This document shows positions 1,643-19,600 of a stretch of DNA of 22,987 nucleotides, piece after piece; position 1 is the stretch's first letter, and every line of letters starts with the position of its first letter. This DNA is from an uncultured Prevotella sp. (GTDB lineage: Bacteria > Bacteroidota > Bacteroidia > Bacteroidales > Bacteroidaceae), in the NCBI GenBank assembly GCA_934196725.1, contig CAKPWR010000044.1, positions 1 through 22,987 of the forward strand, in the 5' to 3' direction. Under the pieces are notes generated by a model. That model was not told where the DNA came from, made no database searches, and was given only the letters and a program-made list of their open reading frames with translations. The translations under genes and the position numbers were made by a program.

Positions 1643-2707
1643 ATGATGACACAAGAAGAATATGTAAGCGATGCCGTGGATTTGCTGAAAAAGCTCATCT
1701 CCACCCCATCTGTAAGTAGAAACGAGAAGGAGGCTGCCGACATCATGGAGCAGACCATCCGCAGTTATGGCTTTGAGCCTCATCGTGAGGGTAACAACGT
1801 ATGGATCATCGACCCTCACTATGATGAGAGCCGACCAACCCTGCTGCTCAATGCTCACATAGATACCGTGAAGCCGGTGGCTTCGTGGACCCGCGACCCG
1901 TTTTCACCGGATGTTGAAGATGGCGTACTTTACGGATTGGGCAGCAACGATTGCGGTGGCGGTCTCTGTTCGCTCCTCCAGATTTTCCGAATGCTGACAG
2001 AGAAGCCTCAGCGCTATAACCTTATTTATTTAGCATCTGCCGAAGAAGAGGTATCGGGAAAGGATGGCATCACCCGTGCCCTGCCTTTACTCCCGCATAT
2101 CGACCTTGCCATCGTGGGCGAACCTACCGGCATGAACCCGGCCGTAGCTGAAAAAGGCTTGATGGTGCTGGATGTGATAGCTCATGGCAAGAGTGGCCAT
2201 GCGGCAAGAAACGAGGGAGTGAACGCCATCTATGAGGCGCTGGATGATATGCGCTGGATTCGTGACTATAAGTTCGAAAAAGTGAGCGAGTTCCTGGGAC
2301 CTACCAAGATGACGCTCACCGTGGTGAATGCCGGAACCCAGCACAATGTGATTCCGGATAAATGCACGATGCTGGTGGATATCCGCACCAACGAGTTTTA
2401 CGACAACGAGGAAGTCTTCGAGTTTATCCGCCAGCACCTGAAGAGCGAGGTCAAGGCACACAGTTTCCGTCTGAAGTCATCCCGCATCGACCCGGCTCAT
2501 CCTCTTATTAAGAAATGTGTAGCCATGGGCATGAAGCCATTCGGCAGTCCTACCCTCAGCGACCAGGCATTGATGCATTTCCCATCCTTCAAACTGGGTC
2601 CTGGCGAATCCTCCCGTTCCCACTCTGCCGATGAGTTTATCAAAATAAGCGAGATTTCGGATGCTATAGCTAAATACCGGGAACTCTTGGATGGAGCCAG
2701 CATCTGA
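1643..2707 (+). CDS. argE: M20-family deacylase, ArgE-type (acetyl/succinyl-ornithine or -citrulline deacetylase)
   Basis: Cytoplasmic zinc hydrolase of 354 residues, probably removing the N-acyl group in arginine synthesis. Bacteroides are known to use N-succinylated intermediates, so the natural substrate may be N-succinyl-citrulline or -ornithine. Visible M20 features are the first metal His/Asp in NAHIDTV (H72, D74), the bridging Asp in GSNDCGGG (D103), the general base and metal Glu in SAEEEVSG (E134/E135), GEPT (E160) and a late His in SRSHSADEF. The dimerisation domain lies roughly at residues 170-280. Length matches Bacteroidota ArgE. It has its own promoter, divergent from the acyl-CoA synthetase. 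The last third is repeated about 1.6 kb downstream. Another M20 amidohydrolase role cannot be excluded, because no other arg genes are in the window. Confidence 0.82.
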   Translation: MMTQEEYVSDAVDLLKKLISTPSVSRNEKEAADIMEQTIRSYGFEPHREGNNVWIIDPHYDESRPTLLLNAHIDTVKPVASWTRDPFSPDVEDGVLYGLGSNDCGGGLCSLLQIFRMLTEKPQRYNLIYLASAEEEVSGKDGITRALPLLPHIDLAIVGEPTGMNPAVAEKGLMVLDVIAHGKSGHAARNEGVNAIYEALDDMRWIRDYKFEKVSEFLGPTKMTLTVVNAGTQHNVIPDKCTMLVDIRTNEFYDNEEVFEFIRQHLKSEVKAHSFRLKSSRIDPAHPLIKKCVAMGMKPFGSPTLSDQALMHFPSFKLGPGESSRSHSADEFIKISEISDAIAKYRELLDGASI

Positions 2708-2735
2708 AAGAGACATTCGTTCTGACTACACCTTA
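2338..2735 (+). repeat. Direct repeat E, copy 1 (argE 3' third plus 3' flank)
   Basis: This segment recurs at 3972-4369, offset 1634 bp. By eye about 22 of 398 positions differ, almost all at third codon positions. The shared segment includes the stop codon and the following 28 bases. A few more bases match downstream, beyond the palindromic element inserted in copy 2. Confidence 0.95.
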
Positions 2736-2803
2736 TTATTATATAAACTTGAATTACTTATAATTAACAGGTTTGGTACACATTGCACCTCACGGTGAAA
2801 CGA

Positions 2804-2848
2804 CAAGGGTCTATATGCCACGATGAACAGGTGGCGTATAGACCCTTG
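2804..2848. terminator. Long stem-loop between argE and rpn, probable bidirectional terminator
   Basis: An 18-bp stem with one wobble (2804-2821 with 2831-2848) and a 9-base loop sits between the convergent argE and rpn genes. No strong T-tract follows on either strand, so termination activity is inferred from position and stem strength. Confidence 0.55.
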
Positions 2849-2870
2849 ATTATATGGAGATATTCGTAAT

Positions 2871-3767
2871 CTACATCTCCGCTTTCAGCAGCTTTATCTC
2901 CTCTGCGGTCAGCCCCGTCATATCCATGATAGACGCTTCATCCATACCCTTTGCCAGCATCTTCCTGGCAATTTCAAGGCTTCGCTGGGACATGCCTTCT
3001 TCTATGCCTTCAGCTCTGCCTTTTTCCATACCTTTTTCCATACCTTCTTCCATTCCTTTCTGATATCTGTCATCCAGAAGGGTTCTTTCAACACTTACGG
3101 AATCCCAAAACTTGTCATAGGCTCTGAGTTCAGCATCAGTAAAGCCGGAAACTTCAAGATCTTCTACTGCTTTTCCAATCTCCGGATCATTAAGCAGGTC
3201 GGAAGGAATATCCTTCGTATTGGAATTTATTTCTGTGAGGAAACGGAGCCACAAGACCATCATGCGCTTGTCGGCGATGGAATGTGGAGTGAACTTAGGG
3301 AGTTCTATGAAGGTGAAATGCAAGCCTTCGATGACCTTATTGCTGTCCTTATCGTGCACGATGCGGTAGTTGTGGATGAAATCTGGAGTATCATGCGCAA
3401 AGATATCATTCACAAGATTCAGGGAATATACTGGTTGGAGTTCGCTGTATTTTCCTCCCTTTTTTGCCTGACTCACATAGAGCTTGGATGCATTGAACAG
3501 TACTCGCTGCTGGAATGCGTCAGACCATTCCATCTGCATTTCCACGCAGAACTTCCTGCCTCTGACATCTGTGCAGAGTACATCCACTATGGTGTTCTTG
3601 CCCCCTTCGAGCTGAGGCACAAGTTCTGTAGGCAGATACTTTATCTCGTGTATCTGCTCTTCTTCGCTGAGTGGCAGGAGGGCGTTCAGAAGACTGATCA
3701 GTCTTTTAGGATGATTGCCGAATATCTTCTTGAACGTAAGGTCTGCCTTAGGATCTAAGTACTTCAT
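2871..3767 (-). CDS. Rpn family recombination-promoting nuclease/putative transposase (PD-(D/E)XK)
   Basis: 298-residue member of the Rpn/YhgA-like (transposase_31-type) family. The N-terminus MKYLDPKADLTFKKIFG is diagnostic. The nuclease core shows an IVDV aspartate and the following E-M-Q (VEMQM), as in PD-(D/E)XK enzymes, then a QRVLFNASKLYVSQ helix and YSLN. The C-terminal tail is charged and built of tetrapeptide units (GMEK/GRAE/GIEE), encoded by five 12-bp units at 2995-3054. The core looks intact. E. coli relatives have been reported as DNA endonucleases that raise RecA-independent recombination, and as toxins restrained by a separately translated C-terminal fragment, with phage defence. 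The start is set at ATG 3767 because a TTG at 3797 would overlap the -7 box; ATG 3773 is also possible. It lies between the two argE 3' copies, suggesting it arrived as cargo. Confidence 0.88.
   Translation of the reverse strand: MKYLDPKADLTFKKIFGNHPKRLISLLNALLPLSEEEQIHEIKYLPTELVPQLEGGKNTIVDVLCTDVRGRKFCVEMQMEWSDAFQQRVLFNASKLYVSQAKKGGKYSELQPVYSLNLVNDIFAHDTPDFIHNYRIVHDKDSNKVIEGLHFTFIELPKFTPHSIADKRMMVLWLRFLTEINSNTKDIPSDLLNDPEIGKAVEDLEVSGFTDAELRAYDKFWDSVSVERTLLDDRYQKGMEEGMEKGMEKGRAEGIEEGMSQRSLEIARKMLAKGMDEASIMDMTGLTAEEIKLLKAEM
2995..3054 (-). repeat. 12-bp in-frame tandem repeat in rpn C-terminal tail
   Basis: Five degenerate 12-bp units of the form CCTTnnnCnnTn on the + strand encode repeated tetrapeptides (KGME, KGRA, EGIE). 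Such units vary in number between strains in known Rpn proteins and form part of the C-terminal dimer helix. Confidence 0.8.
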
Positions 3768-3794
3768 AACCATCTGTTTTAAAATTCTATAGCG

Positions 3795-3802
3795 CAAAGT
3801 TA
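3795..3802 (-). promoter_or_regulatory. -7 box of the intact rpn gene
   Basis: TAACTTTG on the minus strand matches TAnnTTTG. A CTTG lies about 20 bp upstream as a weak -33. The predicted leader to ATG 3767 is about 20-25 nt. Confidence 0.6.
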
Positions 3803-3869
3803 CGGTTTTATTTTCATATCTGCAAGAGTTTTCTAGGAAAAGTTTCTGAAAAAGTTAGAGAATGCAAAG

Positions 3870-3900
3870 AAAAAGGGCGCATCCGGATAGGATACGCCCT
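3870..3900 (-). terminator. Rho-independent terminator (minus strand), orphan
   Basis: On the minus strand a 10-bp G+C-rich stem (GGGCGTATCC with GGATGCGCCC, one wobble) is followed by TTTTTCTTTG. It sits just upstream of the rpn promoter and facing it, but no minus-strand gene precedes it, since the argE fragment lies on the other strand. It may be left from the source locus or insulate rpn. Confidence 0.7.
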
Positions 3901-3971
3901 AACTTGTTAAATAAAATCGGAGGGATTCTGCTCTTGAAAAACCCTCCTAATGGAAGAGAATCAGGAAGCAT

Positions 3972-4341
3972 CCAGCATAATGTGATTCCGGATAAGTGTA
4001 CGATGCTGGTGGATATCCGCACCAACGAGTTCTACGACAACGAGGAAGTCTTCGAGTTTATCCGCCAACATCTGAAGAGTGAGGTCAAGGCTCACAGTTT
4101 CCGTCTGAAGTCATCCCGCATCGACCCGGCGCATCCTCTTATTAAGAAATGTGTAGCCATGGGCATGAAGCCATTCGGCAGTCCTACCCTCAGCGACCAG
4201 GCTCTGATGCACTTCCCATCCTTCAAGTTAGGTCCGGGCGAATCCTCCCGTTCTCATTCTGCCGATGAATTCATCAAAATAAGCGAGATTTCGGATGCTG
4301 TAGCTAAATACCGGGAACTTTTGGATGGAGCCAGCATCTGA
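3972..4341 (+). pseudogene. argE: 5'-truncated duplicate of argE (C-terminal third)
   Basis: Open from QHNVIPDK to the same stop as argE: about 122 codons matching residues 233-354 of the full gene. The protein differs only at Ile-to-Val in SDA(I/V)AKY, while the DNA differs at about 22 sites. It lacks every N-terminal metal ligand and so cannot be an active M20 enzyme. An in-frame upstream ATG (3862) adds unrelated residues read through a terminator hairpin, so independent translation is doubtful. Best read as the donor-derived or remaining half of a locus split by insertion of the rpn cargo. Confidence 0.85.
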
Positions 4342-4369
4342 AAGAGACATTCGTTCTGACTACACCTTA
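3972..4369 (+). repeat. Direct repeat E, copy 2
   Basis: Second copy of the argE 3' segment (first at 2338-2735). Homology stops at CCTTA 4365-4369, where the palindromic element begins. It resumes for about a dozen bases after that element (CCTTATTATATA from 4696), so the element appears to have inserted into this copy afterwards. Confidence 0.93.
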
Positions 4370-4695
4370 CTGAACTTTCGCATGTGGTTTAAGTACGGGC
4401 TGAAGACCCAAAAGTTCCAGAAGCAGCACGCCCTGAAAGGGCAGAAGACCCAAAAGCTCCAGAAGCAGCACGCCCTGAAAGGGCAGAAGCTCCTAGCCCA
4501 GGGCAACGCCCTGGGTATAATAGCAGTTAGCAAGGCGCCCTGTAAGGGCAAAAGCTTTGTTAATTGCCTGATATTTGAAAGCTTTTGCCCTTACAGGGCG
4601 ACAGGTTTGCGTCCGTAATTACCCAGGGCGTTGCCCTGGGCTAGGAGCTTCTGCCCTTTCAGGGCGTGTGGAGCAAAACTTGCGAAACTTGAGTA
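4370..4695. mobile_element. Large nested palindromic (REP/MITE-like) element
   Basis: Ends are imperfect inverted repeats (CTGAACTTTCGCATG at the left, GCGAAACTTGAGTA at the right). Inside are two tandem CGCCCTGAAAGGGC units, a perfect 48-bp inverted repeat (4469-4516 with 4621-4668) and, nested within it, a perfect 23-bp inverted repeat (4536-4558 with 4578-4600). CCTTA is present on both sides (4365-4369, 4696-4700), consistent with a 3-5 bp target duplication. No transposase is encoded; the one open frame through it is a by-product of the repeats. Related shorter elements are at 9414-9502 and 16657-16747. Confidence 0.8.
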
Positions 4696-4716
4696 CCTTA
4701 TTATATAGGTTACAAT

Positions 4717-4818
4717 AAAAAAATGAAGCGCGGTTATACCTTAGACATAACCACGCTTTCTGTTTTTCATCATCTTTTATCTTTTTTACTTATTTACTTA
4801 CTTTCGCTGGCAAAGATA
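4717..4818 (-). ncRNA. Putative short transcript with own promoter and terminator
   Basis: On the minus strand TATCTTTG (4818-4811) could start a transcript near 4804. It would run through ATG-ATG (a possible 10-codon frame MMKNRKRGYV) into a 12-bp hairpin (4726-4737 with 4747-4758) followed by a run of T. The product would be about 85 nt. No known RNA family is recognised; it could be a small RNA, a leader-peptide remnant, or simply a terminator with a chance -7 box. About 150 further bases up to the fimbrillin stop hold nothing clear apart from the frame described in the findings. Confidence 0.35.
4726..4765. terminator. Bidirectional hairpin terminator
   Basis: 12-bp stem (4726-4737 with 4747-4758, one mismatch/wobble). 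It is followed by TCTGTTTTT on the + side and flanked by an A-run that gives T7 on the minus side. On the minus strand it is the first good terminator beyond the fimbrillin operon. Confidence 0.75.
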
Positions 4819-4966
4819 AGGATTATTTTTGGAATACCGAATAAGAAATATAGAAGAAATGATATAAAGAAGAGTAATCGTTTGCACACTTAACAAGCGA
4901 CAGTCCCCTGTTTTTCGTATTGAATCATATCATGTTCTAGCCAAGCATCTTTAGGATATTTTTTCG

Positions 4967-5908
4967 CTATTCCGAAACACAACGGACAGACATCGCTATA
5001 GAACGGGTATTTGTATTATTCTGTACTCCTTTTGATATCTTGAGATTATATAACTTTCCTGCTTCAAACGTATATTTCTGGATTTTATCAGAAACATCAA
5101 TCTCTGTCCCATCAAGCTTAGTCAGTATGAGTTTCGTAATCTTATCTGGCAAGATAAATACGGTAGCATCACCAATTGTCGTCTGGTCTTCATAAGGAGA
5201 CAAGGTAGCTGTCACGATATCAGACGTGTCTTCAACTTTCCAATTGGGGATTTCATCTGTAGTATCGGTTTTATCAAAATAACCAGCATTATAAGCCGAA
5301 ACTTCAGCTTGCGTGATTTTACCCAGAGAATCGTCAAAACGGATAATCACCTTAGCCAAGGCATGCTTCATCGTGATTTTTACTTTGGTGCTACGATCTG
5401 TTGTTGTACAATTATGACCGGTAGATACGCCCCACAACAGATCAAGTTGCAAAGGGTTGGCATCCTCCTGCTTATACTTCATCTTATTAGGATTTTCTTC
5501 GTCATTGAGAACAGAGTACTCTGGATAGCCGGCATAAAAATCTAGCGTTCCCTCTTTTGGCCAGAAACGCTTGGGAGAATAATTCCAGTTTCCATCCTCC
5601 AATTTTACTATCTGACCTCTAGCCCGCTGATTACTTTCACTTCCACCTACACGATACATAAACTTCACCTCGTCTCCTGAAAGAGACTTATGGAAGCCGA
5701 AAATCTGAATCTCGTTACCTTCCTCAAATTCCGTTCTACCAGCATTCAAGCGAGTATTGGGAATTTCCTTCCAATCTGATTGTACGGCAAACTCAATAGG
5801 CTGACCAGATACTGGAATAGCATCCTCCACTTGATTGGTACAGGCTGCACCCATCAAGACAAAGAAAATCATCCATAACTTACTATAACTATAAATATTC
5901 CGCTTCAT
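4967..5908 (-). CDS. Fimbrillin-family (Mfa-like) lipoprotein
   Basis: 313-residue surface lipoprotein, last in a four-gene operon, 14 bp after its upstream neighbour. The signal peptide ends in MGAAC (Cys23), a slightly irregular lipobox. It shares with the next two genes the RFWPKEGTLDFYAGYP motif, a KHALAKV segment (FNHAL in the others) and a VFILPDKI strand, marking the Mfa/FimA-like two-domain beta-sandwich fold. Such proteins are exported through the outer membrane and built into fimbriae or tip structures. Odd: the C-terminus (KGVQNNTNTRSIAMSVRCVSE) lacks the final x-W strand seen in its paralogues and reads like a new tail after a break. An accessory or tip subunit is a reasonable inference. 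Confidence 0.8.
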   Translation of the reverse strand: MKRNIYSYSKLWMIFFVLMGAACTNQVEDAIPVSGQPIEFAVQSDWKEIPNTRLNAGRTEFEEGNEIQIFGFHKSLSGDEVKFMYRVGGSESNQRARGQIVKLEDGNWNYSPKRFWPKEGTLDFYAGYPEYSVLNDEENPNKMKYKQEDANPLQLDLLWGVSTGHNCTTTDRSTKVKITMKHALAKVIIRFDDSLGKITQAEVSAYNAGYFDKTDTTDEIPNWKVEDTSDIVTATLSPYEDQTTIGDATVFILPDKITKLILTKLDGTEIDVSDKIQKYTFEAGKLYNLKISKGVQNNTNTRSIAMSVRCVSE

Positions 5909-5922
5909 ATTCCAGATTATCC

Positions 5923-7026
5923 TTATAAAGGCATTGTTTTATCGTCACCCGGTCCCCATTCATAGACAGTAGGCGTTACTTTGAAATCGATAGGATCAAG
6001 TGAAAGTATCAAATGAAAGACATACGCTTTTCCTCCTTCAAACGTAAAAGACTTATTACTAGTTTCTGACGGATCAAGAACTTCTAGCAGATTTTTCTTT
6101 ACCGTCACCTTTTCCTCTAAATCTCCCTGCTTTACCGTATAAGTTATCTTTAGATGAAACTTTTCGTCCTTCGTCTGAGGGATTATAAAGATATAAGAAT
6201 CGTCAGCATTTGTTATTTTATCATGTTCATGGTCTAACAGAGGAGGTGCACTTAACTTTAATACGGTGCCATCATTTTCATTGACATTTTCATTGCCATC
6301 TACTTTGCCATCTGGTGTCCAAGTATAAACCCAACTAGTACCATTATTGAAGGGAGTCCAAGCTCCATTTTCAAGATTCAGATAGCCCGCCATAACAAAG
6401 ACGCCTTCATTTTCTGAGGCGCCATATAGTCTCACCTCTTGAACTTTTATAACTGCACCATTTTTCTCTAAATTCTGATTGGCTATGATATCAAAGCCCA
6501 AACGAGCCAATGCATGATTGAAAGTAAAATTAACAGGTTCATTAGTCTTTGTCCGATCCTTAGCATTAGCCCACACCAAATCTACAGGAGACATATTAGA
6601 AGGAAAATATATACAAGTTGGATTAGCTTCGTTACTCCCAGGTTTGTTTTCCAGTTTTACGATACCACTATAAGGCGCAAAGGCATAGAAATCCACAGAT
6701 CCTTCATTTGGCCAATATCGGGTATTTGTATATCCCCAACAATTTTCCTTTTCCTTCCAGGTTACGTGTTCATTATCCATCAGAGGTGAGGTTGCCCCAT
6801 TATGGTTGTATCTTGCAAAGACACCAAATCCGGAGTTAAACTCCTTCCCTTTGAGAGAAGTAATATCGGTTACACTAGAACGGGTTGAAGCATTCCGACC
6901 CAAATAAGCATCAAAGTTGATTTCAGAAGATGAAGAAGATGAAGTTTCTTCCACGCCTTCGCCGGCACAACCAGATAATACCAGCTGTGCTATCATAACA
7001 TAAAAGGCTAAACGAAGAAACTTCAT
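5923..7026 (-). CDS. Fimbrillin-family (Mfa-like) lipoprotein
   Basis: 367 residues. The signal peptide ends in the good lipobox LSGC (Cys20), then a Ser/Glu-rich linker. YLGRNASTRSS follows, an Arg-containing region like the trypsin-type maturation site of fimbrillins. Then come RYWPNEGSVDFYAFAPY, VDLVWANAKD, FTFNHALARLGF and YIFIIPQ. The C-terminus VTPTVYEWGPG is the usual last strand. It is closely related to the 7067-8119 gene, so the operon grew by tandem duplication and divergence. Likely secreted, cleaved and assembled into a surface fibre. Operon gaps are 40 bp upstream and 14 bp downstream. Confidence 0.85.
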   Translation of the reverse strand: MKFLRLAFYVMIAQLVLSGCAGEGVEETSSSSSSEINFDAYLGRNASTRSSVTDITSLKGKEFNSGFGVFARYNHNGATSPLMDNEHVTWKEKENCWGYTNTRYWPNEGSVDFYAFAPYSGIVKLENKPGSNEANPTCIYFPSNMSPVDLVWANAKDRTKTNEPVNFTFNHALARLGFDIIANQNLEKNGAVIKVQEVRLYGASENEGVFVMAGYLNLENGAWTPFNNGTSWVYTWTPDGKVDGNENVNENDGTVLKLSAPPLLDHEHDKITNADDSYIFIIPQTKDEKFHLKITYTVKQGDLEEKVTVKKNLLEVLDPSETSNKSFTFEGGKAYVFHLILSLDPIDFKVTPTVYEWGPGDDKTMPL

Positions 7027-7066
7027 CTTATGATAATTTTTAATTCATTATTTTTATCTGATACGA

Positions 7067-8119
7067 TTAATTCCAAGAATCGATATTGATCTTGTCATTT
7101 TCATCTTCTATCCATCCTGTAACAACATCAACATCGAATTCGATTGGAAGACCAATGGTCAAGTTAAGCATATATGCCTTACCCTGCTTGAAGTTCTGTT
7201 TAAGTTGCTTATAAACCTTATTTATTTGGGTTTTACCATCCTTATAGGTTATAGTGTACTCTACGATAACATAAAGTTTATCTGGATTTTCTACATTTCC
7301 TATTTTTTCAGAGAAATTCTGTGGAATTACAAACAAATAATTATTATCTTTATCAGGATTATATGCAACTGTACTAGTTAAATCATAAGGAGTAGAGACC
7401 CAATCAAATTTCTGCTTATCAGAAGATTGATTTGACCAAGGACCTTCAGAAGGAGCCTTAGACAAATCTATGGTAGCCGTTTTATAGAAAGCTGGCTTGT
7501 TTCCATCAGCAGATCCTGCCAATGTAATCTGATTCAATTTAAATGTTGCCTTATTAGTTGCATCCTCAGAAGAATAATTTCCATATAACTTTACAGTATA
7601 ACCAAGTCTAGACAAAGCATGATTGAAAGTAAATGTAACAGGTTCTTTGTCAGTCTTTTCCTGACCCTTAGCATTAGCCCACAACAAATCTGTCTGCTTA
7701 GCAACATCAGCAGCAACAGCAAATTCAAAAGATGCATTATTTAACGTTTTGTTTTCTACAAAAGGAGCATACGCAAAGAAATCAATTTGACCTTGTGTTG
7801 GCCAAAACTTAAGAGGAGAATATGTCCACTTTGTTCCTTGCCAAGTTACCTTCTGATTGTCGAAATTAGGAAAAGAAGCCGTACCAGTATACTTACTAAA
7901 CACACCAAAACCTTCAGTTGAATTCTGAAGAGCAGGCTTATCCAGCACGCTACCACGTGTACCATTTACAGCAACTGCACTTCTTCCCAAATAGCCATCA
8001 AAGCTGATAGCCTCATTCTTAGAAGAATTGTCTGAAAGACTATTCAAGTCATCGCTTGAACAACTTACCAATGTCAATGCTGCCATGGCAGCAATACCCA
8101 TAAAAAATTTCTTATACAT
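7067..8119 (-). CDS. Fimbrillin-family (Mfa-like) lipoprotein
   Basis: 350 residues. Lipobox LVSC (Cys20) is followed by SSDD, typical of Bacteroidota lipoproteins sent to the outer membrane. Shared motifs are YLGRSAV...RGS, KFWPTQGQIDFFAYAPF, DLLWANAKGQEKT, VTFTFNHALSRLGY, NYLFVIPQNF and the final strand VDVVTGWIED. It is the first fimbrillin after the DUF5119-like gene and might be the main shaft subunit, but nothing in the sequence fixes which of the three is major. Base composition is A+T richer than the housekeeping genes to the right, in keeping with a variable surface locus. Confidence 0.86.
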   Translation of the reverse strand: MYKKFFMGIAAMAALTLVSCSSDDLNSLSDNSSKNEAISFDGYLGRSAVAVNGTRGSVLDKPALQNSTEGFGVFSKYTGTASFPNFDNQKVTWQGTKWTYSPLKFWPTQGQIDFFAYAPFVENKTLNNASFEFAVAADVAKQTDLLWANAKGQEKTDKEPVTFTFNHALSRLGYTVKLYGNYSSEDATNKATFKLNQITLAGSADGNKPAFYKTATIDLSKAPSEGPWSNQSSDKQKFDWVSTPYDLTSTVAYNPDKDNNYLFVIPQNFSEKIGNVENPDKLYVIVEYTITYKDGKTQINKVYKQLKQNFKQGKAYMLNLTIGLPIEFDVDVVTGWIEDENDKINIDSWN

Positions 8120-8195
8120 ATCTGTTTTGATTTATAAATTAAACTAATCAATTATTACTTTACTATTTTATCTGATTCTTATCATTTTACTATTT

Positions 8196-9176
8196 CTATA
8201 GTTCCATATCAATATCCTCAGGTTTACCCCAATCCTGGATGGTGACATCAAAACCGCCAGAACTTCCCTCAGAAGGCTTCACCTCAGGTAAAGGTGGCAC
8301 CTCGACATCTACATGGAGAGAAACTATATAACCTGAATCCGATGAGTTTTCGTCTTTCTTAAACTTGTCTCCAACCGCAAACTGATAATCTACCTGCGTC
8401 TTGTTGTCTATCAACAAAGCAGAAAGGGATAACTTATTGTTTTCAGCATCAGGATGGTCGGTTTCGGGTAGACCAAAACATTTAAGCGATGTCTTCAACG
8501 TTCCCAGCGTCGCGTCATTCTCATCAATCGATTTCGTCCAGGATTCCAGAAGATAAGTCACCTTGCTTTTAAGCGGCTTACCCTGTCCCAGCAGAAAGCC
8601 TTCTGAAATACCAGTTAAGGATCCTCTCGCATAACGCAGGTATCCTATACCTGGAACTTTCACGTTGACCTGAATATGCGAAAGCACATTCCTTGGAGTT
8701 AAAGTTACCTCAGAAAAGTCTCCAGAAACATCGAATTCATCGAGTTTGTCAGAGGCAAGCCACTCGGGCTCAACCCCTAACAATTCATCGTCTCCACGAG
8801 AGTACCAACGCGATGTTGTATGCTGTACCACAGCCCGTGCTGTCTCGTAAGAGTCCATTCCTAGAAAGTCGAGTGAACCAAACTCAGTCGTACTTTGGTT
8901 GAATACAAGGATACGATATTTTCCAGGTTCTAAGGAAAAGTCGGCATGAGTTATCTCATTAGTCAAGACAGTTTGCGGAGCACCACCTGACCAGGGAAAC
9001 ACCATGACCGTCATACCAGTAGGCACCTCTTTATCAAACAAATGCCAATCCACATTAATCCGCACCATTTTACGGCCATCCTTTTTCGGACAGCCGGAAT
9101 AGTCATCATAAATGCAAGAAGTAAACAAAATGATAAGGAGCCAATAGTATAAGAATAGCCCTATACATCTTTTCAT
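8196..9176 (-). CDS. DUF5119-like lipoprotein heading the fimbrillin operon
   Basis: 326 residues. The signal peptide ends in LFTSC (Cys21), then CPKKDGRKMVRINVDW and PTGMTVMVFPWSGG. The segment RINVDW...PTGM.VMVFP is characteristic of DUF5119 / Mfa2-FimB-like proteins encoded just ahead of fimbrillins. These are thought to anchor or cap the fibre at the outer membrane. The middle holds SRGDDELLGVEPEWLAS and a SHIQVNVKVPGIGYLRYARGSLTG segment, and the end has VTIQDW. First gene of the operon, with a promoter about 65 bp upstream and 76 bp before the first fimbrillin. The family call is from remembered patterns; the role as anchor is inferred. Confidence 0.72.
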   Translation of the reverse strand: MKRCIGLFLYYWLLIILFTSCIYDDYSGCPKKDGRKMVRINVDWHLFDKEVPTGMTVMVFPWSGGAPQTVLTNEITHADFSLEPGKYRILVFNQSTTEFGSLDFLGMDSYETARAVVQHTTSRWYSRGDDELLGVEPEWLASDKLDEFDVSGDFSEVTLTPRNVLSHIQVNVKVPGIGYLRYARGSLTGISEGFLLGQGKPLKSKVTYLLESWTKSIDENDATLGTLKTSLKCFGLPETDHPDAENNKLSLSALLIDNKTQVDYQFAVGDKFKKDENSSDSGYIVSLHVDVEVPPLPEVKPSEGSSGGFDVTIQDWGKPEDIDMEL

Positions 9177-9239
9177 GAATGCTTCATATTTATAAAACTT
9201 CTTTTCTAGTTATTATATTCATTTTAAAATTTGCGGGTG

Positions 9240-9247: not shown

Positions 9248-9365
9248 CAACATAAAATTGATTTAGTTCTTAAACAATGTTTAATAAAAATTAAATGATA
9301 CATGAGATAAAGTTTTTGTCACAACAGACAAATTACAAGTAACCAACTCTTTTACAAGCAATTAA

Positions 9366-12192: not shown

Positions 12193-14048
12193 CTCTTTCT
12201 ACCTTTCTTAATGATTTTCTTCGTTACCGATTCCTTCTTTGCCGGTCTGTTGCGACGCAGCAGTTCATCCTCGGTAATATATTGTCTATTGTTTATTTTC
12301 CATTTCAGGACGGCATTCTGTCCATCACCGTCCAGTGCCTGCTTCCAGTATTTCATGGCGTCATCTATCATTCCGTTCATGGCATAGATGTCGCCGGCAT
12401 GTTCCAATATCGTACTGTTATTCTCGGTAGAGTCGCTGTTCTTGAGAGCTGCATCGATATAAGTCTTGGCATCGGCATAGCGCTCTTCCTTGAACAGGAT
12501 CCATGCATAGGTATCCAGATAAGTGCCGTTGTTTGGTTCCGCCTTCACGGTCTTATAACTCATCGATTCTGCCTTATGCAGGTCAACGCCTTCCTCGCTC
12601 ATGTAATAAGCATAGTTGTTCAGCGCCATTATATTGTCATCCTTCCATTGCAGACAGGAGTCGTAAGCCGCATAAGCCGCCTGCTTGTCCTTCTTCTTGT
12701 AAAGGATGTCGCCCATGACGGCATAGAGATCAGAAACCAGGTCAGGAGAAGCATCGGCTCTTACCTGTGCCACGCCCTGACGGAACTCATGGAGCGCTGC
12801 ATCCTCATCGTTTTTCTGATAATGCGCCATTCCACCGAAGTAATAGAACACCATTTCTTCCGGATTATACGCATGAGCCGCCTTGCTCTGGGCGATTACC
12901 GATGTATAATCTTTCTTATTCCAGAGCAGCTGCACCAGCTGCAGTCTGGCATTGACATTATCCGGTGCGATGGCAAGCACCTTCCCGTAAGCCTTGCCGA
13001 TGATGCTGTCCGGCATCTTCTTCAGACTCATATAGGCTGCACGCATCTCTGCCACATCAGCCGATGGCTGCGGCACATTGAGCACCTTGTCGAAGAGTGC
13101 CACCACCTGGGTTGAATCGCCACCATGGGTTTCATTGTCCTGGATAAACGAGCGGAACATGATCACCTTGGTTTCCAGATCCGTCTTCGGACTGAGCAAG
13201 ATTTTATCCAGCATCTCGTGAGCCAGGTCTTCCTGCTGGGTTTCCTTGTAATAGTCGTAGAGCGACATCTGGGCATAGGAATTCTCCGGCTCCTCCTTCA
13301 GCGCATCCATAAACATCTTGTAGGCTTCCTTCTGGCGCTGATGCTGCATGAGCCAGTTGCCCAGCATCGTCTTGTAAACCATGTCGAGCGGATGGGCATC
13401 TACCAGCGACTTCAATTCCTTATAGGCAGCCTTCCTGTCGTCCATCATTTCGTAGATGCGCATTTTGGAAAGCGTATACTGCTCGCTCTCACCCTCCTCG
13501 GTTTCCAGACGCGAAATGGTCTTCAGCATCATCGGGAAGTTCTTCTGCTGCTGATACAGCTGCACCAGGATATGCAGGGCATCGGTATTGCCATGATTGC
13601 GGGCATAGAGGTCTTCGTAGGCATCTATCGCCTTGTCATACTGCTGCTTGCCGATATAATGCTGGGCAAGATTCTCGGCATAGGTCTGGTTTTCCGGAGC
13701 CAGCTGTATTGCCTTCTCCATATAGTGAAGGGCAAGCGAATCATGCTTCAGTTGGGAGTGGTACATCGAGAGATAGAAGTATGTCTCTGCGGCATTCGGG
13801 TCTATCTGTCGGGCATGCTCAAAGAGGTCCATCGCAGCAGAATAGTTGTTGGCTGCATGTTGCCTTCCCGCCTCCAGGAAGAAGTATTCAAAACGCTTGC
13901 GGTCGTTAGGGCTGAGCGAGTCCTTTACCGCTACCGCCTGCTGAGCCACGTGTTTCACTTTTACCTTACGGGCCATAGACGGCAAAGCCGCAGAGCCTAT
14001 CAGCCCCACGACCATCCAGATAGCAGTATTTCTCAAACTGAATTTCAC
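12189..14048 (-). CDS. Secreted tetratricopeptide-repeat protein
   Basis: 619 residues, with a signal peptide (MKFSLRNTAIWMVVGLIGSAALPSMA) and at least eight TPR-like helical pairs. Examples are the segments starting AAETYFYLSMYHSQLKHDSLAL, QTYAENLAQHYIGKQQYDKAI, NARLQLVQLLWNKKDYTSVI, and near the end NNYAYYMSEEG and ILEHAGDIYAMNGMIDDAMKYW. The C-terminus is basic (KKIIKKGRKR). Probably a periplasmic or outer-membrane scaffold. It sits between dut and the DUF4292 lipoprotein with a 19-bp gap and a 4-bp overlap, so it belongs to one operon. This gene order is familiar in Bacteroidota, though the exact role is not known. Confidence 0.85.
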   Translation of the reverse strand: MKFSLRNTAIWMVVGLIGSAALPSMARKVKVKHVAQQAVAVKDSLSPNDRKRFEYFFLEAGRQHAANNYSAAMDLFEHARQIDPNAAETYFYLSMYHSQLKHDSLALHYMEKAIQLAPENQTYAENLAQHYIGKQQYDKAIDAYEDLYARNHGNTDALHILVQLYQQQKNFPMMLKTISRLETEEGESEQYTLSKMRIYEMMDDRKAAYKELKSLVDAHPLDMVYKTMLGNWLMQHQRQKEAYKMFMDALKEEPENSYAQMSLYDYYKETQQEDLAHEMLDKILLSPKTDLETKVIMFRSFIQDNETHGGDSTQVVALFDKVLNVPQPSADVAEMRAAYMSLKKMPDSIIGKAYGKVLAIAPDNVNARLQLVQLLWNKKDYTSVIAQSKAAHAYNPEEMVFYYFGGMAHYQKNDEDAALHEFRQGVAQVRADASPDLVSDLYAVMGDILYKKKDKQAAYAAYDSCLQWKDDNIMALNNYAYYMSEEGVDLHKAESMSYKTVKAEPNNGTYLDTYAWILFKEERYADAKTYIDAALKNSDSTENNSTILEHAGDIYAMNGMIDDAMKYWKQALDGDGQNAVLKWKINNRQYITEDELLRRNRPAKKESVTKKIIKKGRKR

Positions 14049-14067: not shown

Positions 14068-14505
14068 TTATTTTACTCCCGTATGACCATAGCCACCAGC
14101 GCCTCTCTCTGTCTCATCGAGTTCTTCTACCTCGATGAAGTCGCATTGTTCGTGCTTGGCAAGCACCATTTGTGCGATGCGCTCGCCGTCATTGATGACG
14201 AAGTCCTGCTGTGAGAAGTTGATGAGCAGCACCATGATTTCGCCTCTATAGTCGGCGTCGATGGTACCCGGCGTATTGAGCACGGTAATGCCATGCTTCA
14301 GTGCCAGTCCGCTACGAGGTCTTATCTGCGCTTCATAACCAGCCGGCAATGCCATGAAAAGTCCCGTAGGGACGAGTCTACGCTCCATAGGATGGAGCAC
14401 GATAGCCTCATCGATATTAGCACGCAAATCCATGCCCGCACTCTGAGGTGTGGCAAACGCAGGGAGAGGCTGATGCCCCTTATTGATAATCTGTACTTTC
14501 AGCAT
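14068..14505 (-). CDS. dut: dUTP diphosphatase
   Basis: Hydrolyses dUTP to dUMP and pyrophosphate, keeping uracil out of DNA and supplying dUMP for thymidylate synthesis; a cytoplasmic homotrimer. All five trimeric dUTPase motifs are present in 145 residues: AGMDLRA (23-29), RPRSGLA (62-68), [10 protein letters not shown] (80-89, with the catalytic Asp), GERIAQ (107-112) and the C-terminal P-loop-like [10 protein letters not shown] (134-143), where Tyr replaces the usual Phe. First gene of the operon with the TPR protein. The promoter is in direct repeat A just upstream. The neighbour on the other side is a dGTPase, so two dNTP-cleansing enzymes once shared one divergent promoter. Confidence 0.96.
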
Positions 14506-14657
14506 ATTTTTCTATTTTTCTGCAAAAATACTGCTTTTTAGGCGAATAATCGCATTTTATAAGTAAAAATGATATAATTTATCTATTTTTATTTTGAATT
14601 ATGCGCAGATTCCTGTATTTTTGCGCTGCAGAACGATAAATGTGCAATATTTAAAAT
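14506..14657. repeat. Direct repeat A/B, copy A: duplicated dut/dgt divergent promoter region
   Basis: About 152 bp repeated at 15148-15299 with one substitution and one single-base deletion. It carries two promoters: minus-strand TATTTTTG (14530-14523) toward dut, and plus-strand TTTTG, 19 bp, TATTTTTG, which now points into the 3' end of the inserted lipoprotein gene. Confidence 0.93.
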
Positions 14658-14680
14658 ACGATTACAACATTTCATACTCT

Positions 14681-15142
14681 TCAATATCTAATGTCTGTAT
14701 TAAATTTGCCTTTTTTATCTCTAGTGACAATCAATCTATGATATAACTTCTTCTTACGTATTTCATCAAAAGAATAGTTCTTGGCATCTTTCCACTTAAC
14801 TAAGAAGAAATAACAAGTATCATGCTCATTAAACAAATAGTTAGGTTCACCACGACATAGCGAATCAGGAAGCACAAAATCTGTGGGATGGACATTTAAG
14901 TATTTATGTTGAAAAACAATTATTGTATCCAAGTCATCATAGCGTGCATAATTTGGAAACAGCATACTATTTACACTATCAATATTATCATAGAGAGACA
15001 CCCCAACGAACAAAGTATCCTTTGTATAATTTTGAAAACAGACAATAGTCCTTGTATGTATAATTGGTACACAAGCCGATATTACATAAATGACTATTAA
15101 AACAACTAGTAAAGATTTTATTATATTTTTTACAGTTTTCAT
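14681..15142 (-). CDS. Small lipoprotein, function unknown (inserted between dut and dgt)
   Basis: 153 residues, unrecognised function. The N-terminus is a signal peptide with lipobox VISAC (Cys24). The body has FQNYTKDTLFVGVSLYDNIDSV and a charged C-terminal half FFLVKWKDAKNYSFDEIRKKKLYHRLIVTRDKKGKF. The style resembles small orphan lipoproteins found in several copies in Bacteroidales genomes. It is much richer in A+T than dut and dgt and lies exactly between the two copies of the dut/dgt promoter repeat. Its start codon is placed behind copy B in the same position that dut's occupies behind copy A, so it probably runs from a copied dut promoter. Signs of transfer are strong. Confidence 0.78.
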   Translation of the reverse strand: MKTVKNIIKSLLVVLIVIYVISACVPIIHTRTIVCFQNYTKDTLFVGVSLYDNIDSVNSMLFPNYARYDDLDTIIVFQHKYLNVHPTDFVLPDSLCRGEPNYLFNEHDTCYFFLVKWKDAKNYSFDEIRKKKLYHRLIVTRDKKGKFNTDIRY

Positions 15143-15147
15143 AACAA

Positions 15148-15299
15148 ATTTTTCTATTTTTCTGCAAAAATACTGCTTTTTAGGCGAATAATCGCATTTT
15201 ATAAGTAAAAATGATATAATTTATCTATTTTTATTTTGAATTATGCGTAGATTCCTGTATTTTTGCGCTGCAGAACGATAAATGTGCAATATTAAAATA
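15148..15299. repeat. Direct repeat A/B, copy B
   Basis: Second copy of the dut/dgt promoter block, offset 642 bp. Its plus-strand promoter (TTTTG, 19 bp, TATTTTTG at 15258-15265) serves dgt, whose ATG is at 15316. Its minus-strand promoter serves the inserted lipoprotein gene. Confidence 0.93.
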
Positions 15300-15315: not shown

Positions 15316-16653
15316 ATGGAATGGAAACAACTCATATCAAACAAGCGTTTCGGACAGGAACACAAGCATGCTGAGCGCCACGATGACCGCTCTGAATTCA
15401 AGCGCGATTACGACCGTCTTATCTTTTCATCGGCATTCCGCCGGTTGCAGAACAAGACACAGGTCTTCCCTCTTCCGGGCAGCATCTTCGTCCACAACCG
15501 CCTCACCCACAGTCTGGAGGTGGCTAGTGTGGGCATGTCGCTGGGCAATGACATCTCGCGCCATATCATCGAGAAGCGGCCGGAACTGAAGGATACGCTC
15601 TTCGAAGAGATAGGAACCATCGTGAGTGCAGCCTGCCTGGCACATGACCTGGGCAATCCTCCCTTCGGCCATTCCGGCGAGAAAGCCATCCAGACTTTCT
15701 TCAGCGAAGGTGCCGGACAAGATCTGAAATCAGCGGTTTCATCGCAGTTCTGGGATGACATCACCCATTTCGAAGGCAATGCCAACGGCTTCCGCATCCT
15801 TACCCATCGCTTCAAGGGTCGTCGACAGGGCGGTTTCGTCATGACCTATTCCATGCTTGCCGCCATCGTGAAATATCCTTTTGCCAGCAGCGTGGCAGGC
15901 AACCACGGCAAGTTCGGTTTCTTTACATCAGAAGCCACCACCTATCAGAAAGTAGCCGAAGAACTGGGCATTCGCCGTCTGTCTGCCGATGGAGAGCCGC
16001 TCAAATATGCCCGCCATCCGTTGGTCTATATGGTTGAGGCTGCCGACGACATCTGTTATGAGATCATGGACATTGAGGATTCCCATAAATTGAAGATACT
16101 TTCCTTCGATGAAACCGAAGAATTGCTGCTCGGATTCTTCGATGAAACCACGAAAAAGAAGATTCGCCAGCGCATCATCGATGAGGAGCTGACCGATGAA
16201 AACGAACAGGTGGTATATATGAGAGCCTGTGTCATCGGCAAACTGGAGAACAAATGCGTGCAGGCATTCCTCGACCATGAGGAAGAGATTCTTGCCGGAA
16301 CCTTCGAGGGTTGCCTCATCGACCACATCTCAGAGCATGAGCGGCTGGCTTACAAAGCCTGCACCCAGGTATCCAGAAAGAAGATTTATGCCAGCAAACC
16401 CGTCCTCGACATCGAACTTTCGGGTTACAAGATCATGGCTACGCTGATGGAGGTATTCATAGATGCCGCCGTCAATCCTTCCCGCTTCTATTCCAAGCAG
16501 CTCCTGCGCCGGGTAAGCAGTCAATACGACATCGAGAACGAGAATCTGGAAGAGAGAATCATGGCTGTATTGGATTACATCAGCGGCATGACCGACATCT
16601 ATGCGCTAGATATCTATCAGAAGATCAACGGTATCAGTCTGCCTATCGTATAA
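15316..16653 (+). CDS. dgt: Deoxyguanosinetriphosphate triphosphohydrolase (dGTPase), HD domain
   Basis: Splits dGTP to deoxyguanosine and triphosphate, adjusting dNTP pools; a cytoplasmic oligomer. In 445 residues the HD-domain metal site is clear: His65 in NRLTHS, His110-Asp111 in CLAHDLGNPPFGH with a further His119, and a distal Asp in EAADDICYEIMD. The early FRRLQNKTQVF segment is typical of Dgt proteins. Length matches the 440-500 residue type. ATG 15316 follows repeat copy B and its promoter. Activity on other dNTPs is possible, since some family members prefer them. A palindromic element begins 4 bp after the stop. Confidence 0.94.
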   Translation: MEWKQLISNKRFGQEHKHAERHDDRSEFKRDYDRLIFSSAFRRLQNKTQVFPLPGSIFVHNRLTHSLEVASVGMSLGNDISRHIIEKRPELKDTLFEEIGTIVSAACLAHDLGNPPFGHSGEKAIQTFFSEGAGQDLKSAVSSQFWDDITHFEGNANGFRILTHRFKGRRQGGFVMTYSMLAAIVKYPFASSVAGNHGKFGFFTSEATTYQKVAEELGIRRLSADGEPLKYARHPLVYMVEAADDICYEIMDIEDSHKLKILSFDETEELLLGFFDETTKKKIRQRIIDEELTDENEQVVYMRACVIGKLENKCVQAFLDHEEEILAGTFEGCLIDHISEHERLAYKACTQVSRKKIYASKPVLDIELSGYKIMATLMEVFIDAAVNPSRFYSKQLLRRVSSQYDIENENLEERIMAVLDYISGMTDIYALDIYQKINGISLPIV

Positions 16654-16656
16654 GAA

Positions 16657-16747
16657 ATTCAAGTTTCGCAAGTAAGCCCCACACGCCCTGGGCTAGGAGC
16701 TTTTGGGCCTTCAGCCCGTACTTGAACCACATGCGAAACTTCAGTAT
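16657..16747. mobile_element. Short palindromic (REP-like) element
   Basis: Runs from TTCAAGTTTCGCAAGTAAGC to CACATGCGAAACTTCAGTA, with the GCCCTGGGCTAGGAGCTTTT core also found in the 4370-4695 element but in reverse orientation. Ends are inverted repeats. It directly abuts the dgt stop codon on one side and the promoter of the next gene on the other. Confidence 0.78.
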
Positions 16748-17045: not shown

Positions 17046-17258
17046 ATAATCTTTACAATTATATCTTTCAGAAGAGTGTGAAGAAATGATTAGCAACAGG
17101 CTAGCGAAGGTTATATATAAGGGCAGCATATTCTTTATACTGCCCCTTTTTCGTACTTTTAGCTTCAACCCTAACGGACTGCCGGGAACCTTCGGATGGT
17201 AGAAACAAGAGACTATCCGGCTACAGATGTAGCTCAAAAAGATAAGAAAGCAGAAATT
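17046..17258 (+). repeat. Direct repeat C, copy 1
   Basis: 213 bp repeated at 19387-19600 with three substitutions and one single-base insertion. It includes a terminator hairpin (17121-17130 with 17136-17145, then T5). No convincing gene is inside; the minus-strand open frame over it differs at its ends between copies. It ends where the rpn repeat D begins (17260). Confidence 0.95.
17121..17152 (+). terminator. Terminator within repeat C1
   Basis: 10-bp stem GGGCAGCATA/TATACTGCCC with one wobble, 5-base loop, then CTTTTT. It lies about 120 bp after the small-protein gene's stop. Confidence 0.75.
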
Positions 17259-17259
17259 A

Positions 17260-17655
17260 GATAATGTACATACACTACGACTGAAGTTGTTTCAGCTGGT
17301 CTTCTGTTAATCCTGTAGCTTGTATGATTTGAGTCCAAGACATACCCATTGCCAACAAATTACGGGCTACTTCCAAACCTTTAGACAATTCACCTTCAGC
17401 ACGACCTTCAGCACGACCTTCTGCACGACCTTCAGCACGACCTTCTGCTCGACCTTTAGCAATTCCTTTTTCCATTCCTCTCTTCTCATCAAACTTTCTG
17501 GTGGCATATATATCACGCATATTCTTGATGTCCTCGTCATAAAGCTCAAGTTCCTCGCGGGAGAGCTTGCGGAGGTCGCCTATCTCTGCCAACTTGCGGA
17601 AGACTGGATACTTCTCGCTGAATGGCATCTGCTCAAACATGTTCATATTCTTCAT
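17260..17655. repeat. Direct repeat D, copy 1 (rpn 3' half)
   Basis: 396 bp matched by 22592-22987 (offset 5332) with about four substitutions. The match begins sharply 15 bp outside the rpn stop codon in both places, at GATAATGTACATACA, which holds the palindrome ATGTACAT. The right limit of the second copy is outside the window, so the full repeat may be longer. Confidence 0.95.
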
Positions 17656-17863
17656 TATATAAATCCAACAATCAATTATATCCATACACTCTGCCTCCGT
17701 GTGCTTGTCAAACAATGGCGGTCTTGGCAAACGTCACGTCCTTGATTACCAACTCGTCTTCAAACAATCCGTTGAGGAATGTTATCAGGCATTCTTTAGT
17801 GTCTTCGCTTCCAAAGATTCGCTTGAAAGCCCAATCGACACGTGGATCTATAAATCTTGCCAT
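17275..17863 (-). pseudogene. Rpn family nuclease gene with nuclease core deleted (C-terminal domain intact)
   Basis: The N-terminal segment MARFIDPRVDWAFKRIFGS...VIKDVTFAK is typical of Rpn proteins and begins at ATG 17863. At about 17710-17730 it breaks off into a stop (TAIV*). The family's C-terminal part resumes in another frame (LPRPPLFDKHTEAEC..., then DIIDCWIYIMKNMNMFEQMPFSEKYPVFRKLAEI). About 120 residues are missing, including the catalytic Asp and ExQ. The remaining 151-codon frame (17275-17730) ends with five EGRA-type tetrapeptide units and a helical tail (GLTEDQLKQLQS). A short form is free to start at one of several internal Met codons (MKNMNMF, MPF, MRDIY). In E. coli relatives such C-terminal fragments act as antitoxins, so this may still be functional. 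It belongs to a different Rpn subfamily from the 2871-3767 gene. Confidence 0.85.
17395..17454 (-). repeat. 12-bp tandem repeat, 5 units, in rpn'
   Basis: Five units of TTC(A/T)GC(A/T)CGACC encode the tetrapeptide repeat GRAE. An identical five-unit array is in the second copy at 22727-22786. Confidence 0.92.
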
Positions 17864-18333
17864 CTTCTTACGTTTTATAAGATCGTGGACGCAATATTGC
17901 AATTCTGCTGCGAAGATACACTTTTTTATTGAAACTGCCAAGAAATTATGGGATTTTCTTTTTAAAAAAAAGAAAAGGAAGAGGTATGGGAGGATAATCA
18001 CAACAGATTTCGCTGATCTTGACCTATTCGGTCATTCCACCAGCGGTTATTGAAAATTGGCCCCCTTCGGGGACCGGAGGTTACTTGCGACACTTCAGCC
18101 ATCTTGGTTAACCTTGTTTAATCATTCAATATTATTCGTGTTCAATGTTACCGCCCAATTTCGCTTCCCATCCCTCTACTATTGATTGTCAATAAGTTAC
18201 AAAGATAAAAAATATGATTCGGGACTTTTTCAAGTGAACTCAGTTAATTGCCGTTTGCAGCCCTTTTGTGATATGATAAGGATCCAGACTGAGACGGAAA
18301 TTATATGTGTCATGTTGTTTTCTTCACGAATAA
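17864..18333. other. Intergenic region with orphan hairpins
   Basis: On the minus side TATCTTCG near 17914-17921 is a possible rpn' -7 box. A G+C-rich hairpin GGCCCC/GGGGACC lies at 18059-18075, next to TTACTTGCGACACTTCAG, which resembles the ends of the palindromic elements in degraded form. At 18250-18265 is half of a terminator (GCCGTTTGCAGCCCTT) identical to the right arm of the terminator at 22505-22520, without its partner arm. No gene is supported here. Confidence 0.5.
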
Positions 18334-18365: not shown

Positions 18366-18393
18366 CAGCACATGTTTAGTAAAAAGAAAAAGT

Positions 18394-18936
18394 ATGAGTG
18401 AAGTAAAGCCATATAAATTACCGGAAGAAAAAACTAGTATAGTTTCTGATTCCATGGCAGTCCGTATTACTCCTGATACGGATATTGTTACCTTGCGCCA
18501 TAATGTGATGGATGCGGTATATGCTACTACAGATCAGAATGCTTTGTATAGTTGTTTGGTTTTCTTGTCAAGCCAAAAGCAAACTTTACAATCTTCAGTA
18601 AAGGAAGAACTTTTGAACCGTTTAGATGAATTGTCAAAGCTTCCAGATGGTTGGGATGGTGAAGGTAGTCTTGCTCTCTCAAGAAATATAGTAGATTTCG
18701 TGAAGCGAATTATTCTGCTAGCTACTGATAGCAGTCTGCAAAATTGGGTAGCTTTTCCTGATGCACGAGGTTATATTTATTTAGATTTCACGGAAGACAA
18801 TAATATAGCAGGTATTACTATTGCCAATCACCAGGTAGTAGCATTTATCAAACGGGATGGTCATTTGTCTAAATTCAGTTTTGATAAGTTGGATGAAAAG
18901 GAAGTATTATCATTATTAGAGAAAGCTCATGGATAA
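18394..18936 (+). CDS. Hypothetical protein with LPDGWDGEG motif, first of a two-gene module
   Basis: 180 residues, no signal peptide, probably cytoplasmic. Function not recognised. The central motif LDELSKLPDGWDGEGSLALS, followed by a helix (NIVDFVKRIILLATDS) and a beta-rich part (WVAFPDARGYIYLDF..., AGITIANHQVVAFIKRDG), matches a widespread 'L..LP.GWDG.G' type of uncharacterised protein found on plasmids and genomic islands. The C-terminus is helical (DEKEVLSLLEKAHG). It has its own promoter, and its last 8 bp overlap the next gene, so the two are co-translated. Carried between repeats C1 and C2 as cargo. A toxin-antitoxin, defence or regulatory role is guesswork. Confidence 0.75.
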   Translation: MSEVKPYKLPEEKTSIVSDSMAVRITPDTDIVTLRHNVMDAVYATTDQNALYSCLVFLSSQKQTLQSSVKEELLNRLDELSKLPDGWDGEGSLALSRNIVDFVKRIILLATDSSLQNWVAFPDARGYIYLDFTEDNNIAGITIANHQVVAFIKRDGHLSKFSFDKLDEKEVLSLLEKAHG

Positions 18937-19372
18937 AATGATTTCTGAAATAGCAGATGATGAAAAGGTTGCAAGAATTCTGTTTTCACCTTCTCATATC
19001 TATAAAGGGCGTGTTTCACCGAAGGCTTTTAAACTAGAAAAGTTGAAGAGTGGTGCTGAAGACTATATTTCAGTATTAAGATATCATGCTGACCAATTAG
19101 ATTCTGTATCAGCTGTATTTCAACCTAGAACGAAAGGAGACTCTCGATATGGATATACATTTTTGAATGTTTTGGATGTTCGAAACCTGGATTATGAATT
19201 TAGCAACAGAAGGGTGGAACTATTGCCAAAACCAAGCAAGCGATTACCGTTACATGCAGGAATCTTTTTATCAATTGATGGAAGATTACAGACAGCCGAT
19301 GATGTTTCTCCTGATATAGATTTTTTCCAAAAAGAACTTGCCATGCTGTGTGATGGGGTGCATAAATTTTAG
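18929..19372 (+). CDS. Hypothetical protein, second of the two-gene module
   Basis: 147 residues, no signal peptide. The early segment DDEKVARILFSPSHIYKGRVSPKAF is followed by EDYISVLRYHADQ and SRYGYTFLNVLDVRNL. Later come LPLHAGIFLSIDG and DIDFFQKELAMLC. The R-I-L-F-S-P ... G-R-V-S-P-K-A-F ... SVLR pattern suggests a small conserved enzyme-like or binding domain with several His residues, but no known family is named with confidence. ATG 18929 overlaps the previous gene by 8 bp; ATG 18938, just behind that gene's stop, is an equally good start. It ends 14 bp before repeat C2, whose hairpin would terminate the transcript. Confidence 0.75.
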   Translation: MDKMISEIADDEKVARILFSPSHIYKGRVSPKAFKLEKLKSGAEDYISVLRYHADQLDSVSAVFQPRTKGDSRYGYTFLNVLDVRNLDYEFSNRRVELLPKPSKRLPLHAGIFLSIDGRLQTADDVSPDIDFFQKELAMLCDGVHKF

Positions 19373-19386
19373 CCCATCACCAATAT

Positions 19387-19600
19387 ATAATCTTTACAAT
19401 TACATCTTTGAGAAGAGTGTGAAGAAATGATTAGCAACAGGCTTAGCGAAGGTTATATATAAGGGCAGCATATTCTTTATACTGCCCCTTTTTCGTACTT
19501 TTAGCTTCAACCCTAACGGACTGCCGGGAACCTTCGGATGGTAGGAACAAGAGACTATCCGGCTACAGATGTAGCTCAAAAAGATAAGAAAGCAGAAATT
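19387..19600 (+). repeat. Direct repeat C, copy 2
   Basis: Second copy of the 213-bp block. Both copies lie behind a small-gene stop codon. The terminator hairpin is preserved (19463-19472 with 19478-19487, then T-run to 19493). Confidence 0.95.

Follow-up and report, generated by a model that had tools for sequence, protein, structure and literature searches.

Accessory genes between long direct repeats of local sequence in a Segatella copri complex contig: three structures consistent with single-crossover integration of incoming DNA

In a contig of the Segatella (Prevotella) copri complex, we found three structures in which accessory genes lie between two long direct copies of a repeat; the structures are designated E, A/B, and C, and the whole 22,987-base contig that was analyzed is called the window. 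Ordinary recombination with incoming DNA, rather than a new mobile element, is the simplest explanation. For each of them, the most likely origin, to which we give about an even chance, is one RecA-type crossover between the chromosome and a circularized incoming DNA with short local homology. The three structures are not of equal weight: E consists of two diverged alleles and is the informative case, A/B is recent and near-identical, and C is without a relative for comparison.

The window is the longest contig of cluster P0014. Its best named relatives were Segatella copri iA622 and Indica, with dgt protein identities of 88% and 91% (G001 and G002), and the proposed mechanism draws on this one contig and three close genomes, namely G001, G002, and G046, the last of which is a single contig. 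Parts of a dispersed repeat family lie at 4368–4700, where they include a 49-bp perfect inverted repeat (4469–4668), and at 16685–16746, a part with dozens of matching places in G001, G002, and G046.

Comparison of the window with itself confirmed the three repeat-cargo-repeat structures described in an earlier sequence-only reading and slightly refined the repeat lengths. The two copies are 398 bp long and 94.5% identical at E (1,236 bp between them), span 156 alignment columns with 98.1% identity at A/B (486 bp between them), and span 215 columns with 98.1% identity at C (2,127 bp between them); the longest exact runs common to both copies in the three structures are 71, 100, and 101 bases. 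A fourth pair (17260–17655 and 22592–22987; 99.0% identical, with a 276-base exact run) corresponds to the 3′ portion of an rpn gene, extending to the end of the window. The earlier statement that the cargo has neither an integrase nor terminal inverted repeats also stood, in that a Pfam scan of six cargo reading frames revealed no integrase and that neither of the two pairs of inverted repeats of at least 40 bp in the window frames E, A/B, or C. The match of rpn to PF12784 is to a “transposase” by name only. As had likewise been proposed, the cargo is accessory in all three structures, comprising rpn at E, a lipoprotein gene at A/B, and an rpn remnant plus a gene pair at C; the three cargoes look like defence or competition genes.

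At E, the 3′ end of an M20-family peptidase gene (1553–2707, forward strand; Pfam PF01546/PF07687) is duplicated. Repeat copy 1 (2338–2735, forward strand) covers this 3′ end and 28 bp past the stop codon, and copy 2 (3972–4369, forward strand) is a truncated M20 3′ end of a diverged allele. The cargo between them (2736–3971, with junctions set by the repeat boundaries) carries rpn on the reverse strand (2871–3797), a PD-(D/E)XK nuclease gene that scored 156.7 bits with PF12784 (cut-off 27.4) and 134.6 bits with TIGR01784 (cut-off 52.1). In relatives G001, G002, and G046 (3/3), the E repeat is present as a single copy at the locus, as is the A/B repeat. The two E copies differ at 22 sites, all inside the 123 codons compared; 21 of these differences are synonymous and the remaining one exchanges Ile and Val (pS 0.27, pN 0.003; binomial P 1e−13). 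Ten of the 22 sites have both variants represented among the three relatives; the variants seen in none of them number three in copy 1 and nine in copy 2. Because 21 of the 22 differences are synonymous, the truncated copy must have diverged within a working gene, and because copy 2 is without the rest of the gene, selection could not have preserved it in place. Copy 2 belonged to a working M20 gene until recently. Either copy 2 came from another lineage or the upstream gene was replaced later, and both amount to recombination between lineages; the pair would then be no old in-place duplication, unless one copy was replaced afterwards. No clean single switch point between the alleles was seen in the copies.

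At the right junction of E, positions 3865–3975 match positions 7576–7686 of an rpn locus in G046 (L196) with 94.6% identity, and the match ends four bases (CCAG) beyond the junction, within M20 sequence. Because the match runs past the junction, both sides of the join contain these four bases. The stretch 2736–9541 is absent in full from G001 and G002, and G046 has approximately 7.4 kb of different genes at E. Four reading frames occupy 4967–9176, between the M20 gene and the next conserved gene, and are likewise absent from G001 and G002; two are Mfa_like_1, one is DUF5119, and the fourth (7067–8119) gave only a sub-threshold NCBIfam match.

The A/B repeat corresponds to the spacer that separates dut from the divergently oriented dgt. 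The gene order dut-repeat-dgt of G001 is dut-repeat-lipoprotein-repeat-dgt in the window. Copy 1 (14503–14658, forward strand) adjoins the dut start codon (14505), and in copy 2 (15145–15299, forward strand) the dut-facing TATTTTTG motif precedes the ATG of the lipoprotein gene. The 486-bp cargo (14659–15144) is almost exactly one gene, which encodes an orphan lipoprotein of 153 aa on the reverse strand (14681–15142), and the site is empty in G001, G002, and G046. The copies abut the start codons of dut and of the lipoprotein gene, and in both of them the same TATTTTTG motif, which we take to be comparable to the Bacteroidota −7 box, points toward the adjoining gene. Relative to G001, copy 1 has one substitution and copy 2 has three. 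The locus has gained 642 bp, with the dut-dgt spacer otherwise intact and no deletion in the recipient. When identity to G001 was calculated per 250 bases, it was 94–99% from 9,542 to about 15,500, dropped inside dgt (about 15,500–16,500) from 97% to 87% and then to 76–78%, and was back at 95% in the last 154 matched bases of dgt, a sharp change indicating that the area undergoes recombination between lineages.

The lipoprotein has no family of its own in Pfam, NCBIfam, or PADLOC, and 30 of the 398 genomes examined in the genus have a homolog. Some homologs lie beside Rhs core domains: an Rhs core motif lay within 1.5 kb at 5 of 20 fetched homolog loci versus 0 of 80 control loci. Among four proteins scanned, TIGR03696 confirmed the motif above its cut-off in two and scored below the cut-off in the other two. 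No Rhs core motif or toxin was seen in the window. Given the Rhs neighborhood of its homologs, the lipoprotein is read as a putative orphan immunity-like protein. At three homolog loci (L248, L250, and L251), Rhs-core reading frames flank the lipoprotein homologs on both sides, with direct repeats of 253–1,074 bp.

At C, the repeat copies (17046–17259, apparently non-coding, and 19387–19601, located by the self-comparison; both forward strand) enclose an rpn remnant and two genes. The remnant (17275–18001, reverse strand) consists of two overlapping frames from which the middle of the Pfam domain is missing, and its 3′ part is the one that recurs at the end of the window. The first gene (18394–18936, forward strand, 180 aa) weakly matches the end of PDC-M32A, a phage-defence candidate of PADLOC (E 4.7e−8), and belongs to a 96%-identical cluster with 1,130 member sequences in the protein collection; the second (18929–19372, forward strand, 147 aa) matched no known family in Pfam, NCBIfam, and PADLOC scans. 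A search of G001, G002, and G046 that scored 40 candidates in each genome did not detect the C repeat; the rest of C was represented there by rpn pieces and short matches only. G002 carries a similar short rpn, and at the protein level G001 gave one distant match (26%) to the gene pair. Direct repeats were present at 2 of 18 fetched loci with homologs of the pair.

To count such structures, a repeat pair was defined as two copies of at least 100 bp, at least 90% identical, and 0.3–5 kb apart. No such pair was found in 80 Prevotellaceae dgt loci (1,506,441 bases), which are a weak control because all represent one conserved neighborhood. In 800 kb of G046 there were seven pairs, four of which had no other place in that stretch; the corresponding numbers were five and one in 400 kb of G018, and one and zero in 400 kb of G026. 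The sequence-only reading had seen in the three structures a general acquisition route. The approximately five local pairs per Mb in G046 do not support this; of the four pairs concerned, one consists of an rpn fragment, another recurs as a third copy elsewhere in G046 (L200), and a further one adjoins what look like pieces of a transposase gene. With three local pairs in its 23 kb, the window exceeds this rate (Poisson P approximately 2e−4 at 5 pairs/Mb and 1e−3 to 3e−3 at 8.75–12.5 pairs/Mb), but because it was chosen for its repeat pairs, these values are descriptive only.

Each of the three relatives has 12–14 rpn matches, fragments included, and pairwise matches among them usually start no more than approximately 70 bp from the start codon, whereas their 3′ ends vary. 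Repeats around rpn were surveyed at 20 loci with a threshold of at least 60 bp and at 12 others only at lengths of at least 100 bp and identities of at least 90%. A repeat spanned rpn at eight loci of the three relatives (L196, L201, L205, L208, L210, L213, L217, and L220). Two of these repeats, from 34 rpn places listed, were local, namely those of L213 (166 bp, 98.8%) and L220 (125 bp, 93.6%). L213 (G001 contig C84, 3189–4375) has one rpn between two 166-bp local repeats, with the stop codon just inside the second copy, and is the cleanest parallel to E and A/B. The spanning repeats of L196, L210, and L217 are dispersed sequences, and that of L201, also dispersed, has 19 other places in 800 kb. 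The E and A/B repeats occur at no other place in 1.24 Mb of G001, G002, and G046. The repeats of L205 and L208 were weaker or tangled (L208 lies at a contig end), and the pair at L216, which takes in the rpn tail, is dispersed. Of 27 rpn loci from genomes other than the three of S. copri, 2 were spanned (at least 80 bp, at least 88%).

Because several rpn loci had flanking repeats, we considered whether rpn itself might be mobile and create long target duplications. We rejected this, with four of the eight spanning repeats dispersed and two local; the survey agrees with the view of rpn genes as non-transposons in the part of PMC10327210 available to us. It had also been suggested that Rpn nucleases help the insertions. 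Local pairs numbered four in 800 kb of the rpn-rich G046 versus one in 800 kb of the two rpn-free genomes (G018 and G026), counts too few for a link to be either shown or excluded, and the suggestion gained nothing from A/B, which is without rpn, or from the eight spanned loci, of which two were local and four dispersed. A module of approximately 100 bp, apparently hairpin-capable, occurs in the window (2736–2873) and at L217, L196, and L214, where it follows rpn stop codons and also an ATPase-like gene; L217 has it four times at a spacing of 1.1–1.4 kb. An integron-like cassette array at this G002 locus was considered and rejected, the module having matched only L233, L246, and L247 in the first 400 kb of G046.

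Single-crossover integration is favored because the structure, the empty sites at E and A/B, and the allele signature at E fit it. The exchange between lineages around A/B, the lack of framing inverted repeats and of an integrase, and the four CCAG bases at the right junction of E, such as an end-joining step would leave, are also in line with it. An incoming piece of DNA in which an accessory gene lies next to approximately 150–400 bp of local homology would become circular, and one RecA-type crossover with the chromosome would then place the cargo between two copies of the homologous stretch and leave the host genes undamaged. According to the sections of PMC3240628 at hand, when plasmid DNA cut so that only one end was homologous was introduced into E. 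coli, 56 of 60 unusual recombinants gave a PCR sign of duplication, and 14 sequenced clones had duplications of 109–950 bp that were ascribed to a single crossover of the recircularized molecule. Such Campbell-type integration also leaves foreign DNA between direct repeats of the homologous locus, and the duplication lengths bracket the 156–398 bp observed here; the E. coli case involved a laboratory plasmid, whereas the window has accessory genes and no circle was seen. Homology-driven insertion had been proposed earlier for all three structures; it is the best fit at E and A/B, with their single-copy sites in 3/3 relatives and the E alleles, whereas C is without a comparable relative. That the intermediate was circular, how the DNA entered, and that A/B and C share the origin of E are inferred. 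No donor circle or donor allele was found for any structure. Carriage of the cargo by phages or plasmids was considered and rejected: a search of viral contigs with the three cargo proteins, sensitive to close relatives only, gave no hit, the plasmid collection gave one lipoprotein match (33% identity, in a 1.77-Mb Prevotella record) as well as rpn matches in 186 records, every one below 60%, and the phage collection gave seven rpn records, also all below 60%.

The nearest rival is the type of model proposed for T6SS and Rhs immunity arrays, a process like homology-facilitated illegitimate recombination (HFIR) that combines a homologous join at one end with an illegitimate join at the other, whereby incoming DNA replaces or adds sequence and a redundant gene fragment remains; we regard it as a possible but clearly less probable origin. 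Following the model in the available part of PMC5361080, it would account for both the orphan immunity-like gene and the truncated, diverged M20 fragment, and since 2736–9541 is absent from G001 and G002, the DNA that entered at E may have been a larger block. The bases shared at the E right junction, recognized via L196, may represent the microhomology of 3–10 bp expected at an illegitimate join, and they suit such joining as well as they suit the favored route. However, classical HFIR generally produces a deletion of insert-like size and not a duplication, as far as the accessible part of PMC3240628 describes it, and at A/B 642 bp was gained with nothing deleted.

In-place duplication at a staggered break or by template switching, possibly promoted by Rpn and trapping cargo between the copies, seems unlikely. 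The 98% identity of the A/B and C copies is compatible with it, near-identity at A/B allowing such an origin, and overexpression of RpnA to RpnD raises RecA-independent recombination in E. coli in the portion of PMC5350276 we drew on. The E copies, however, diverged under purifying selection, and one of them would have to have been replaced later; A/B is without rpn, and the difference in local pairs (4 vs 1) is too small to argue either way. An assembly artefact, in which two alleles from a strain mixture were placed one after the other, is very improbable. The window is a bare contig, probably of metagenomic origin, and E does join two alleles. Against this, the copies share exact runs of 101 bases at most, and the contig breaks at the pair with the 276-base run; local repeat pairs also occur in the single-contig G046; and an ORF spanning the E right junction (3862–4341) heads a 90% cluster of 13 members on four contigs including the window, although not all members need share the junction.

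The structures differ from the known systems that they resemble. Transposon or IS target duplications are short and identical, whereas the repeats here are 156–398 bp and the E copies are 5.5% diverged; such elements also have terminal inverted repeats or a moving transposase, whereas no inverted repeats of at least 40 bp frame these structures and the A/B cargo is one gene without a Pfam family. Dispersed rpn genes share horizontal movement, the lack of terminal inverted repeats, tandem duplications, and variable ends with what we observed, as portrayed in the excerpts of PMC10327210 and PMC5350276 used. They are described in that excerpt of PMC10327210 as having no target-site duplications, whereas E and L213 have local direct repeats of 398 and 166 bp; these are too long, and those of E also too diverged, for ordinary target-site duplications. 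In the T6SS orphan immunity arrays of V. cholerae, orphan immunity-type genes and remnants were also gained by recombination; these arrays grow within effector clusters, whereas A/B is one gene beside dut and dgt in a window without an effector (PMC5361080, available part). The rAID arrays, to the extent covered by the source text available, are likewise orphan immunity-like genes acquired by gut Bacteroidales, but they have a tyrosine recombinase and co-oriented arrays, neither of which was seen among the window proteins scanned (all but those encoded at 342–1334 and 9542–14048); the window has a single lipoprotein gene. In the accessible text of PMC2884548, the share of small variable segments with flanking direct repeats is 10–18% in three species, and 66–94% of those repeats are shorter than 30 bp, compared with 156–398 bp here. 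Repeat-flanked accessory segments are therefore already known, and it is the length here that is unusual. Among the papers listed in literature searches, no title or abstract opening described such structures in Prevotella, which does not prove their absence.

An extension of single-crossover integration, which we consider doubtful, is that the S. copri complex might recurrently take up individual defence or immunity genes as small circles via short-homology single crossovers, flush with host promoters, and that pop-out between the repeats might make them reversible cassettes that need no enzyme of their own. The window would provide a natural example of small defence or immunity genes being added beside housekeeping genes without a mobile element or damage, with a clear signature of selection at E. 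If the structures are repeated across strains, the element-free acquisition of defence genes would become directly countable.
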